Positions 16,933 through 20,603 of a DNA stretch of 64,000 nt are shown piece by piece. Below the pieces are notes generated by a model. That model searched no databases and was not told the origin of the DNA. It saw only the letters and a list, made by a program, of their open reading frames with translations. Position 1 is the first letter of the stretch. The number at the start of each line of letters is the position of its first letter. Source of the DNA: Acrocarpospora phusangensis (GTDB taxonomy: Bacteria > Actinomycetota > Actinomycetes > Streptosporangiales > Streptosporangiaceae); NCBI RefSeq assembly GCF_016862995.1, contig NZ_BOOA01000017.1:62001-126000 (forward strand), given 5' to 3'. The position numbers and the translations under genes were made by a program.

Positions 16933-18144
16933 TCATTCCTCCCACAGCTCGGGCCGGCGCGTCCCGGCCAGAGCCGCGATCTTGCCGAGCGCCTCGCCGA
17001 CCGGCATCGGCGGCAGACTCCGGGACCCGCGCAGGCGCAGCGAGACGCTCCCGTCGGCGGCCTCCCGGGACCCGACGACCGCCTGGTACGGGGTCAGGTG
17101 CGCCGCCCGGATGCGCGCCGACAGCGAACCCTGGGCCGACACGTCGGCGCGCAGCCCGAGTTCGCGGCAGCGCCCGGCGAGCGCCTCGGCCGCCGGGATC
17201 TCCGCCTCCGAGACCGGCAGCACGACCACCTGGCGCGGCGCCAGCCAGGCCGGGAAGGCTCCGCCGTGCACCTCGATGAGGTGGGCGACCGCGCGCTCCA
17301 CGCTGCCGACGATGCTGCGGTGCACCATGACCGGCCGGTGCCGGCCGCCGTCCGGGCCGGTGTAGTGCAGGTCGAAGCGCTCCGGCTGGTAGAAGTCGAT
17401 CTGCACGGTGGACAGGGTGGACTCGCGCCCGGCGTGGTCGGCGATCTGAACATCGATCTTGGGCCCGTAGAACGCCGCCTCCCCCTCCTCCGCCTCGTAC
17501 GGCAGGCCGGCCTCCTTCAGCACCTCCTCCAGCAGCGCGCTCGCCCGCTCCCACAGCCCGGGGTCGGCCACGTACTTCCCGCCCGGCCCCGGCAGGGACA
17601 GGCGGTACCGCACCGGCCGGATGTCCATGGCGCGGTACGCGGCGGCGATCAGGTCGAGCGCGGCGCGGGCCTCGTCCACGGCCTGGCCGGGGGCGCAGAA
17701 GATGTGGGCGTCGTTGAGCTGGATGGCCCGCACCCGGGTGAGCCCGCCGAGCACGCCGGAGAGTTCGGCGCGGTGCATGCCGCCGAGCTCGGCCAGCCGC
17801 AGCGGCAGCTCGCGGTAGCTGTGGCCGCGGGCGCGGAACATCAGCGCGTGGTGCGGGCAGAGGCTGGGCCGCAGCACCACCTGCTCCCCGCCGAGGTCCA
17901 TGGGCGGGAACATGTCCTCGTGGTAGTGCGCCCAGTGTCCTGATATTTCGTACAGCTCGCGTTTGCCCAGGACGGGCGAGTACACGTGCCGGTATCCGGC
18001 CCGGCGTTCCACGTCCCTGACGTACTCCTCCAGCGCCAGCCGTACGGCGGCGCCGTCGGGCAGCCAGTACGGCAGCCCGGAACCGATCAGCGGGTCGGTG
18101 TCGAACAGGTCCAGCTCGCGGCCGAGCTTGCGGTGGTCGTACAT
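16933..18144 (-). CDS. thrS: Short threonyl-tRNA synthetase lacking TGS and editing domains
   Basis: 403 aa enzyme with only the class II catalytic core and the C-terminal anticodon-binding domain (from about 300, QVVVLPVSEAEIPAAEAL). Ordinary bacterial ThrRS has about 640 aa with N-terminal TGS and editing domains, absent here. The zinc ligands of ThrRS are matched by C96 (RPSLCPHH), H147 (NDAHIFC) and H275 (VMVHRSIVG). Motif 2 is SYRELPLRLAELGGMHR. Some conserved positions differ (LCPHH instead of NCPGH, IQLNDAH instead of FTQDDAH). Similar short forms are, to my knowledge, found in other actinomycetes as paralogs. ATG 18144 follows GAGGAG by 6 nt. Expression is probably controlled by the upstream threonine-codon leader and hairpins. 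Without editing it may mischarge serine; that is inference. Confidence 0.85.
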   Translation of the reverse strand: MYDHRKLGRELDLFDTDPLIGSGLPYWLPDGAAVRLALEEYVRDVERRAGYRHVYSPVLGKRELYEISGHWAHYHEDMFPPMDLGGEQVVLRPSLCPHHALMFRARGHSYRELPLRLAELGGMHRAELSGVLGGLTRVRAIQLNDAHIFCAPGQAVDEARAALDLIAAAYRAMDIRPVRYRLSLPGPGGKYVADPGLWERASALLEEVLKEAGLPYEAEEGEAAFYGPKIDVQIADHAGRESTLSTVQIDFYQPERFDLHYTGPDGGRHRPVMVHRSIVGSVERAVAHLIEVHGGAFPAWLAPRQVVVLPVSEAEIPAAEALAGRCRELGLRADVSAQGSLSARIRAAHLTPYQAVVGSREAADGSVSLRLRGSRSLPPMPVGEALGKIAALAGTRRPELWEE

Positions 18145-18187
18145 GACGGTCTCCTCGCGGAAGGGGGCGAGCGACCGGGGAACACGA

Positions 18188-18212
18188 AAGCCCGGGGCGT
18201 CGCCCCGGGCTT
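18188..18212 (-). terminator. Attenuator terminator hairpin in the thrS leader
   Basis: A perfect 11-bp stem AAGCCCGGGGC / GCCCCGGGCTT with loop GAC on the minus strand, starting 13 nt after the leader-peptide stop and 44 nt before thrS. It is followed by TCGTGTT, a modest T run. Its 5' arm can instead pair with the leader (18243-18234), giving an alternative fold. Confidence 0.75.
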
Positions 18213-18225
18213 GGCACATCAGGAA

Positions 18226-18279
18226 TCAGCGCGCCGGGACAACCTCCGGCGTCGTCGTCATGGCGGCTCGTCTGATCAT
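18226..18279 (-). CDS. Threonine-codon leader peptide of thrS (17 aa)
   Basis: The leader peptide reads MIRRAAMTTTPEVVPAR. The three central Thr codons are consecutive ACGs (18258-18250). ATG 18279 is preceded by AAGGTGAG (18291-18284) at 4-nt spacing, a better ribosome site than most genes here. A ribosome stalled for lack of Thr-tRNA would leave 18243-18234 (GTTGTCCCGG) free to pair with 18208-18199 (CCGGGGCGAC), which disrupts the terminator. With ample Thr-tRNA the ribosome reaches the stop and the terminator forms. GCCGG/CCGGC within the leader can form the 1:2 stem. This is the layout of ribosome-mediated attenuation. Confidence 0.8.
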   Translation of the reverse strand: MIRRAAMTTTPEVVPAR

Positions 18280-18333
18280 GCGGCTCACCTTAGCGACAAC
18301 ATCCGCTCCCCGCGAGCGTATTTCCCGCGCCTG

Positions 18334-18352
18334 ACCGACTGGTCGGTATGCT
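18334..18352 (+). promoter_or_regulatory. TetR-type palindrome overlapping a leaderless promoter
   Basis: ACCGAC-TG-GTCGGT (18334-18347) is a perfect 6-bp inverted repeat of a kind common among TetR operators. TATGCT (18347-18352) fits a -10 element exactly 6 nt before the SDR ATG, so the SDR mRNA is probably leaderless. The palindrome also lies in the divergent thrS leader promoter region. No TetR gene is adjacent. Confidence 0.5.
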
Positions 18353-18358
18353 TCCGTC

Positions 18359-19120
18359 ATGACTCTGTTCTCGGTGGCGGGCAAGACGGTCGTGGTGACC
18401 GGGGGCTCGCGCGGCATCGGCCGCATGATCGCGTCGGGTTTCCTGGACGCGGGGGCCACGGTCTACATCTCGGCCAGGAAGAAGTCCGAGCTGGACGCGG
18501 CGGCGGAGGAGCTCGGCTGCGTGGCGGTCCAGGCCGACCTGTCCACGGCCGAGGGGGTGGCCGCGCTGGTGGAGGCGGTCTCGGCCCGGGAGTCCAGGCT
18601 GGACGTGCTGGTCAACAACGCGGGCGCGACCTGGGGAGCGCCGCTGGCCGAATACCCGGAGAGCGCCTTCGACAAGCTCTGGAACATCAACGTGAAGGGC
18701 GTCTTCTACCTGACCCAGCAGTTCCTGCCGCTGCTGCGGGCCGCCGCCGGGCCGGAGGACCCGGCCCGCGTGATCAACATCGGCTCGGTGGACGGCCTGC
18801 GCGTGCCCGCCATGGAGAACTACGCCTACTCGGCGGCGAAGGCGGGCGTGCACATGCTCACCCGCCACCTCGCCCAGCGACTGGCCCGCGAGTCGATCAC
18901 CGTCAACGCGATCGCCCCCGGCCCGTTCGAGTCGAAGATGATGGCCTTCGCGCTCGACGACCCGGCCACCCGCGGCGCCATCGAGAGCCACGTCCCGCTC
19001 GGCCGGATCGGCCGCCCCGACGACATGGCAGGCGCGGCCGTCTTCCTGGCCAGCCGGGCCGGCGCCTACCTCACCGGGGCCGTCATCCCGGTCGACGGCG
19101 GCCTCTCAACCGGTGGCTAG
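18359..19120 (+). CDS. Short-chain dehydrogenase/reductase
   Basis: 253 aa NAD(P)-dependent oxidoreductase of the classical SDR family. Cofactor motif TGGSRGIG (14-21), NNAG (86-89), catalytic S143, Y157 and K161 (YSAAK), and a C-terminal GRIGRPDDMAGAAVFLAS / YLTGAVIPVDGG block. It resembles 3-oxoacyl-ACP-reductase-like and 'glucose 1-dehydrogenase' SDRs; the substrate is not predictable. No Shine-Dalgarno site precedes the ATG, but a -10 element is placed for a leaderless start. Its last 15 bp overlap the convergent ATP-grasp gene. Confidence 0.92.
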   Translation: MTLFSVAGKTVVVTGGSRGIGRMIASGFLDAGATVYISARKKSELDAAAEELGCVAVQADLSTAEGVAALVEAVSARESRLDVLVNNAGATWGAPLAEYPESAFDKLWNINVKGVFYLTQQFLPLLRAAAGPEDPARVINIGSVDGLRVPAMENYAYSAAKAGVHMLTRHLAQRLARESITVNAIAPGPFESKMMAFALDDPATRGAIESHVPLGRIGRPDDMAGAAVFLASRAGAYLTGAVIPVDGGLSTGG

Positions 19121-20022: not shown

Positions 20023-20286
20023 TCAGTCGTCGAACCGGTAGGAGAGGCCGACGCTGCCCCCGCGGGTCGCGGTGCCCGCGATGCCGTTGATGTTGATCAC
20101 GTTGGTGGCACCCCTGCTGCCCACGTTGGTGGCGGCGATGTGGCCGAAGTTGTTGCCGGACTGGGCGGAGTCGCTGTTCCGGCTGGTGTTCTTCGTCCAG
20201 GTGTCGGCCTGGGCGGGGGCCGCCAGCAGGACGGCGCCACAGGTGGCGGCGAGGACGGCTCCGGTCGCGGCGATCTTCTTGAACAT
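20023..20286 (-). CDS. Small secreted protein, paralog 1 of a tandem pair
   Basis: 87 aa with a Sec signal peptide (MFKKIAATGAVLAATCGAVL ... AAPAQA|D). The roughly 60-residue mature part is rich in Asn, Ser, Gly and Thr, with DSAQSGNNFG and TNVININGIAGTAT. No Cys remain after cleavage. Its neighbour at 20346-20603 shares the signal peptide and the DSAQSGNNFG core. The composition and Gln/Asn-Gly spacing recall surface amyloid proteins (curli repeats, rodlins), but I cannot assign it to a named family. ATG 20286 has AAGGAG at 6-8 nt. Confidence 0.75.
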   Translation of the reverse strand: MFKKIAATGAVLAATCGAVLLAAPAQADTWTKNTSRNSDSAQSGNNFGHIAATNVGSRGATNVININGIAGTATRGGSVGLSYRFDD

Positions 20287-20345: not shown

Positions 20346-20603
20346 CTAGTGGAAGATGTAGGTGACCGTGATGCTGCCGCCGGACGCGGTAGCGGCGACG
20401 CCATTGATGTTGTTGACGTTGGTGGAGCTGCCGGAGCCGGCGTTCCGGGCGACCACCCAGCCGAAGTTGTTGCCCGACTGCGCGGAGTCCCGGTTGGAGC
20501 TCCAGTTGTCGGTCCAGCTGTCGGCGTGCGCCGGGGCGGCGATCAGGCTCGCGCCGCAGGCGGCGGTGAGCAAGGCGCCGGTCACGGCGATCTTCTTGAA
20601 CAT
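20346..20603 (-). CDS. Small secreted protein, paralog 2 of a tandem pair
   Basis: 85 aa, signal peptide MFKKIAVTGALLTAACGASL ... AAPAHA|D, mature part with DSWTDNWSSN, DSAQSGNNFG and TNVNNINGVAATA. It matches paralog 1 at most positions of the mature core, so the two arose by tandem duplication. Each has its own AAGGAG ribosome site. The gap between them is 59 bp with no clear terminator, so one mRNA is likely. The C-terminus GGSITVTYIFH alternates hydrophobic residues as in a beta strand. Structural or surface role is inferred only. Confidence 0.75.
   Translation of the reverse strand: MFKKIAVTGALLTAACGASLIAAPAHADSWTDNWSSNRDSAQSGNNFGWVVARNAGSGSSTNVNNINGVAATASGGSITVTYIFH

Follow-up and report, generated by a model that had tools for sequence, protein, structure and literature searches.

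The window, a stretch of 64,000 nucleotides from Acrocarpospora phusangensis, carries on its minus strand a −10 box TAAGGT (18292-18287), a leader open reading frame (ORF; 18279-18226), a hairpin (18212-18188), and thrS (18144-16933), in that order. The product of thrS is a threonyl-tRNA synthetase (ThrRS) of 403 amino acids with catalytic and anticodon-binding domains only. The genome also encodes a full-length ThrRS on another contig, and the short form is a second copy beside this housekeeping synthetase, as expected of an auxiliary enzyme. No TTT leader with a −10 box was found in the stretch around the full-length gene (L208).

The leader ORF, MIRRAAMTTTPEVVPAR*, runs from ATG to TGA over 17 codons and includes three ACG (Thr) codons (18258-18250), the arrangement of a leader-peptide attenuator, in which a short ORF with a cognate codon run precedes the gene. 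Strand 1, CGCCGG (18251-18246), pairs with CCGGCG at 18237-18232 (−10.8 kcal/mol). This partner lies in strand 2 (18243-18232), which can instead pair with strand 3: GTTGTCCCGG (18243-18234) and CCGGGGCGAC (18208-18199) form a duplex of 10 bp including two G-U pairs (−17.1 kcal/mol). The terminator-like hairpin 3:4, AAGCCCGGGGC-GAC-GCCCCGGGCTT, has 11 bp (−22.8 kcal/mol), and its top (18206-18200) is also complementary to 18170-18164 in segment 5 (18177-18164). Segment 5 can pair with this top (3:5) or with segment 6 (GCGAGGAGACCG, 18158-18147), which contains GAGGAG, the Shine-Dalgarno of thrS. In the window, helix 5:6 reads CGGTC-G-CTCGC / GCGAG-GA-GACCG (−15.0 kcal/mol) and covers the gene's Shine-Dalgarno, as in a translational attenuator; 2:3 and 3:5 overlap. 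The 11-bp GC hairpin, the 10-bp 2:3 pairing with two G-U pairs, and the GCCGG/CCGGC stem, all given in a preliminary description of this DNA, were verified base by base. The fold of the leader region had a z score of −2.7 against its own shuffles, 3 of 200 of which were equally good.

A ribosome covers ~13 nt beyond its A site. With this footprint, a ribosome whose A site holds the first ACG would have its edge at ~18245, covering strand 1 and not most of strand 2, and a ribosome at the UGA would reach ~18215, covering strand 2 and not strand 3. By sequence and coordinates, the mutually exclusive stems 1:2, 2:3, and 3:4 are positioned to suit these ribosome positions. A T-box or other Rfam RNA was rejected because the window had no Rfam match at the gathering score; the six weak matches in 18050-18400 included no T-box. 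A scan for promoters and terminators by its own consensus found none.

Conservation of the leader and its start

A first sample combined a contig scan (best 80 of 457 loci) with a scan of 200 family genomes. TTT..AR* was present upstream of thrS in 94 of the 95 distinct loci; for L079, the one locus without it, the upstream sequence is limited to 155 nt. The wider sample added 40 further family loci and phylum loci, with L002, L003, L121, and L123 left out. When leader candidates were picked by preferring TTT and then a TANNNT box, a leader was present in 158 of 159 loci, and 143 loci were distinct. At least three consecutive Thr codons were found in 142 of the 143 distinct loci (three in 140, four in one, and five in one), the one exception being L145 with only two in a row. 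Among the 11 phylum loci (L113 to L123), nine had a leader, and L121 and L123, being full-length forms, were omitted. L118, L119, L120, and L122 (51-57% identity) have very different leaders, yet retain a Thr run and a GC hairpin. A chance ORF was rejected because the leader is conserved across relatives. The preliminary description had named missing conservation of leader codons and stems in close relatives as the observation that would speak against it; both are conserved, and its 17-codon ORF with three ACG codons before a short thrS is borne out by the coordinates and by these relatives.

A covariance model (R1) was built from 47 of the 94 leaders, chosen for variety. In the sample of 200 family genomes, every one of the 76 genomes that encode a short ThrRS (E ≤ 7.5e-154) had an R1 match (E ≤ 2.7e-11), as judged from two tables compared by eye, and six further family genomes had an R1 match at that cut-off. 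The thrS ORF of four of these six is shortened (L188 in G190), frame-changed (L189 in G059), cut by the contig end (G041), or decayed (L191 in G123); L188 and L189 still carry the leader, and in L191 the leader has decayed together with thrS. When R1 was applied to a phylum sample of 396, six genomes, including that of the window, matched at E < 1e-10. R1 is lineage-bound; the distant leaders of L118, L119, L120, and L122 gave no strong match.

Three further leaders were found in other settings, two of them (L235 and L161) related to each other. The leader of L192 (G188) starts with MKRAAMTTTPETT.. and has no recognisable thrS within the next 2 kb. L235 (G055) and L161 (G082) carry MQRFVETTAPDLSGVWLLS and TTTPDSSGAWLLR, respectively; the L161 leader precedes a ThrRS at 51% identity, and no ThrRS was found in the first 1 kb downstream of L235.

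The Thr runs of the 143 loci comprise 431 codons, of which 424 are ACG, and Thr usage in the 46 long ORFs of the window was 31% ACG and 65% ACC. Since the last ACG overlaps strand 1 and the first two do not, the ACG run possibly reflects a preference for one isoacceptor. In the tail GTC CCG GCG CGC TGA, third positions were nearly invariant among the 136 loci with that tail length. L136 provides a natural test of RNA versus peptide: it has one base fewer after the Thr run, so its tail lies in another frame (TTTPEVSRRAD*) with the RNA tail kept, which indicates that the RNA, and not the peptide end, is retained. These data bear on whether ribosome stalling is caused by the peptide TTTPESVPAR as such, for instance together with an inhibitor, so that the peptide sequence is sensed rather than Thr-tRNA. 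Such arrest would account for a peptide whose conservation in most relatives extends past the Thr codons, but it is very improbable, given that the residue after TTTPE varies widely while third codon positions are conserved, that L136 has another C-terminus, that leaders of full-length thrS read TTTPG.SRR, and that distant leaders keep little but the Thr run.

We also examined the start of the leader. In the window, TAAGGT ends 7 nt before the ATG, and AAGGTGAG before the ATG resembles a ribosome site; the preliminary description had indeed assigned a good ribosome site here. TANNNT ended 6 or 7 nt upstream of the leader start in all 143 distinct loci, a count somewhat favored by the preference for TANNNT in choosing candidates. 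An earlier count in 94 loci accepted the first in-frame start that had a TANNNT no more than 16 nt away; the spacing was 7 nt in 84 loci, 6 nt in 8, and 5 nt in 2. Across the 143 loci, TGCTA-CGT at −16 to −8, followed by C at −1, stood out as the strong signals ahead of the start. A Shine-Dalgarno-like motif preceded the leader start in only 6 of 143 loci, on which ground a real ribosome site at the leader was rejected; for thrS such a motif was found in 141 of 143, a number biased by the fact that the thrS start was picked partly by motif. In Streptomyces lividans, thrL is described as a leaderless start by RNA-seq (PMC8079986, as far as its text was accessible). The conserved TANNNT box, the rarity of the Shine-Dalgarno-like motif, and the leaderless start in S. 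lividans together led us to interpret the supposed ribosome site as a −10 box belonging to a leader promoter. The leader is probably translated leaderless, with transcription starting at or beside its ATG.

Predicted pairing of the hairpin, segment 5, and the thrS ribosome site

Covariation was evaluated in an alignment of 86 loci (77 of the 111 listed and 9 added by hand). For helix 3:4, 93.3% of cells were paired compared with 31-65% in slid positions, and seven pairs were changed on both sides. The percentages for 3:5 and 5:6 were 91.8% (slid, 45-53%) and 83.3% (slid, 40-58%), respectively. Cells changed on both sides numbered 41 for 3:5 compared with 3-13 when slid, and 33 for 5:6, hardly above the slid positions with up to 30. 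In these 86 loci, none of 500 shuffles reached the percentage paired or the covariation score of 3:4, 3:5, or 5:6; the count of pairs changed on both sides was not above that in shuffles for 3:5 (235 of 500) or 5:6 (286 of 500). The locus-by-locus shuffle, swap, folding-model, and T-run analyses used 140 of the 143 loci (L116, L161, and L039 dropped). When hairpin tops were swapped, the own downstream region gave stronger pairing than the median foreign one for all 24 kinds and was within the best 10% for 17; in the 5:6 swaps, the own pair was within the best 10% in 68 of 140 loci. Helix 3:5 was matched by at most 5 of 100 shuffles in 106 of 140 loci, and that of the window itself is weak, being matched by 11 of 100. 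The downstream fold had a median z score of −1.9, with 61 of 140 loci below −2. Pairing 2:3 was invariant in close relatives. Among 16 more distant leaders (those of full-length thrS described below, except for L193, a short form), 2:3 was within the best 5% of shuffles in three and 1:2 in one; among 10 other leaders, each was so in five. A hairpin at the place of strand 1 was drawn in 26 further or deep loci and was seldom better than shuffles.

Covariation across relatives supports the predicted helices 3:5 and 5:6. Because the two are mutually exclusive, they suggest that control acts on translation, either in addition to transcription or in its place. The three-stem logic of trp-type attenuation that the preliminary description proposed is retained in part: 1:2, 2:3, and 3:4 are conserved and fit the ribosome positions, but the scheme is incomplete, having missed the segments at 18177-18147 that form 3:5 and 5:6.

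Transcription attenuation could in principle act by itself, with 3:4 as an intrinsic terminator, 2:3 as the antiterminator, and no part for segments 5 and 6. Attenuators of this kind have been described for leuS and trpS of Streptomyces (Seliverstov 2005, PMC1262725, accessible in part). In the window, 2:3 (−17.1) and 3:4 (−22.8) come closest in energy, a forced 2:3 lying 4.2 kcal/mol above the free optimum, compared with a median of 13 kcal/mol over the loci, and the last G-C pair of the stem is followed by TTTCGTGT. Against this, the T run is weak in most relatives. At least five T in the 8 nt after the 3:4 stem were found in 2 of 140 loci; when counted after the last G-C pair, 20 of 126 loci had at least five, including the window (5 of 8). 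The terminator of the preliminary description is a possible one, with a strong hairpin and, in most loci, a weak T run. In addition, an RNA that ends at the hairpin would have no use for the covarying helices 3:5 and 5:6, which are located farther downstream. Control by transcription only is unlikely on these grounds. The lack of a T run was dropped as proof against termination: with leaders rich in aromatic residues (see below) as comparison, the mean number of T in 8 nt was 3.71 versus 4.25, and since this measure failed to separate the aromatic leaders, for some of which the hairpin strand is ambiguous, no claim is made from it.

In equilibrium folding models, the Shine-Dalgarno was equally covered in all states (median unpaired, 0.40, 0.40, and 0.39). 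The on state would therefore have to be kinetic, and the opening of the Shine-Dalgarno is a step that we infer.

A candidate attenuator for a spare ThrRS

The conserved leader, its codons, the −10 box, and helices 3:4, 3:5, and 5:6 come from the comparison of relatives. Considering them together, we regard it as fairly probable that the locus is a ribosome-mediated attenuator responding to threonyl-tRNA, with an auxiliary, editing-less ThrRS as its target. Transcription would begin at or beside the leader ATG, and the leader would be read leaderless. When Thr-tRNA is plentiful, the ribosome would get to the UGA and mask strand 2, whereupon hairpin 3:4 would form, segment 5 would sequester the thrS Shine-Dalgarno (5:6), and thrS would be off; 3:4 may additionally stop part of the RNA polymerases. 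When Thr-tRNA is scarce, the ribosome would stall at the ACG run and mask strand 1, strand 2 would pair with strand 3, and the opened hairpin top would take segment 5, leaving the Shine-Dalgarno free and allowing thrS to be made. Strand 3 would thus have strands 2, 4, and 5 as possible partners, and segment 5 would have 3 or 6. Judged from the sequences, the short thrS is very probably switched on when charged threonine tRNA runs short. We infer that the leader is translated and that the system responds to threonine, as well as the sequence of steps and how control is divided between transcription and translation.

The ThrRS of Escherichia coli binds the leader of its own mRNA, and the short ThrRS might likewise bind its structured leader, with the Thr codons being secondary. 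A stable structure does adjoin the Shine-Dalgarno here. Nevertheless, such autoregulation would leave the conserved Thr run and leader start unexplained, and the short ThrRS is without N-terminal domains; we give it hardly any weight compared with sensing of threonyl-tRNA by the leader ribosome.

More tentatively, and with doubts outweighing confidence, we propose that a six-strand attenuator is widespread in Actinomycetota, with a leaderless Thr leader that would control thrS translation through a Shine-Dalgarno mimic in the top of a terminator-like hairpin, the mimic and the Shine-Dalgarno competing for one anti-Shine-Dalgarno segment. It would act on short and, with other sequences, full-length thrS, and supply the cell with a spare ThrRS that can be induced, possibly as protection from natural inhibitors of the enzyme. 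If this is true, many actinomycetes hold a spare, editing-less ThrRS induced by falling Thr-tRNA charging, and one RNA couples the translation of a leaderless leader to a mimic of the Shine-Dalgarno. The scarcity of T after the hairpin would then make sense, antibiotic producers would have an inherent defense against inhibition of ThrRS, and the charging of Thr-tRNA could be followed with a natural reporter.

The inhibitor lead was followed at the borrelidin site. Resistance to borrelidin arises from changes at H309 and L489 of E. coli ThrRS (PMC4389257, in its accessible part). Alignments at the place of E. coli L489 (human L567) showed Q in all but three of the 129 short loci (126, counted with duplicates), and L in 11, Q in 8, and E in 1 of 20 distinct full-length ThrRS. 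Short and full-length forms were set by identity for this comparison (<50%, full-length) and then recounted, because L193/L174 is one short form below 50% identity and the own full-length copy appears as both L002 and L208. The two copies of this genome read Y-Q (short) and N-L (full-length) at this place. The residue was rejected as a mark of the short form, since Q also occurs in 8 of the 20 full-length enzymes. A role of the short ThrRS as a spare against natural ThrRS inhibitors is possible as a lead from sequence comparison.

Related systems and other leaders

A spare synthetase under attenuation has, by analogy, a precedent in trpRS1 of Streptomyces coelicolor. Vecchione and Sello reportedly showed by experiment in 2010 that this auxiliary synthetase is controlled by ribosome-mediated attenuation; unlike the present case, it concerns tryptophan, is experimental, and is tied to indolmycin resistance. 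Canestrari and colleagues are said to have described in 2020 leaderless polycysteine leaders of mycobacterial cys operons, which share the leaderless short ORF, the run of a single codon, and attenuation in Actinobacteria, but sense cysteine and precede operon genes rather than a synthetase. In Bacillus subtilis, a second ThrRS gene is reportedly under a T-box RNA (Putzer, 1992); there are again two ThrRS genes and RNA control by tRNA charging, but no leader peptide.

The closest known case is thrL-thrS of S. lividans TK24 (SLIV_19412, SLIV_19410), in which a Thr-containing leader, MKRVRPFLETTPGFVPAR*, with a VPAR end like most leaders here, precedes thrS, is leaderless by RNA-seq, and is followed by one hairpin without a uridine-rich stretch (PMC8079986). 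The present leaders share the thrL form M(K/Q)R..TTP..VPAR before thrS with one hairpin, their leaderless start being deduced from the −10 box. The S. lividans leader differs in having two Thr codons, and the accessible part of that paper describes no 3:5 or 5:6 helices, family, or mechanism. A Thr leader on an actinomycete synthetase, which the preliminary description had considered notable, is thus less novel than thought, as leaders on thrS, leuS, trpS, and alaS of S. lividans were published in 2021 (PMC8079986); to the extent that its text was accessible, the helices 3:5 and 5:6 go beyond the published description. Besides S. lividans, no Thr leader on an actinomycete thrS was found in the open-access literature as accessible, subscription papers being outside this scope. 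In the leuS and trpS attenuators of Streptomyces, too, a leader peptide precedes a synthetase gene, and the actinobacterial LEU element brings together Leu codons, a pseudoknot, and the leuA Shine-Dalgarno (PMC1262725). These systems concern other amino acids, with no thrS structure reported in the accessible part of the paper, and the pairing partner of the Shine-Dalgarno in the LEU element is the codon run itself.

Some full-length thrS genes of other genera are preceded by weaker R1 matches, whose leaders follow a TANNNT box and are of the form M..V.ETTTPG.SRR..*. In many of these, the hairpin top GGGAGCGA can pair with a downstream TCGCTCCC, and in some the Shine-Dalgarno region GGAGCGACC resembles the hairpin top. 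In swaps among 14 of the 16 listed (L206 and L220 not included), the own 3:5 ranked within the best 10% for 8 leaders and the own 5:6 for 6 (median z, −0.35). Among 18 full-length thrS genes, a TTTPG.SRR-type leader was found in none of 10 from genomes with a short thrS and in 4 of 8 others, although three of these four genes had been picked by their R1 match.

The Thr model also led to Phe/Trp/Tyr-rich leaders (for example, MQRKFWRFYGYRP..LR*) with a GC hairpin and, in several, a T run (L201-L205, L207, L232-L234, L240, L241, and L244). These look like aromatic amino-acid leaders, and, judged by its start, the gene that follows probably encodes a DAHP synthase.

Two further observations concern the minus strand of the window. 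Two similar adjacent ORFs of 87 and 85 amino acids (20023-20286 and 20346-20603) both start with MFKKIA and have a likely signal peptide and Asn-rich bodies. A weak ThrRS match with 27% identity at 2584-2970 (contig positions 64584-64970) lies inside an open frame of 651 amino acids, which probably encodes another class II synthetase.
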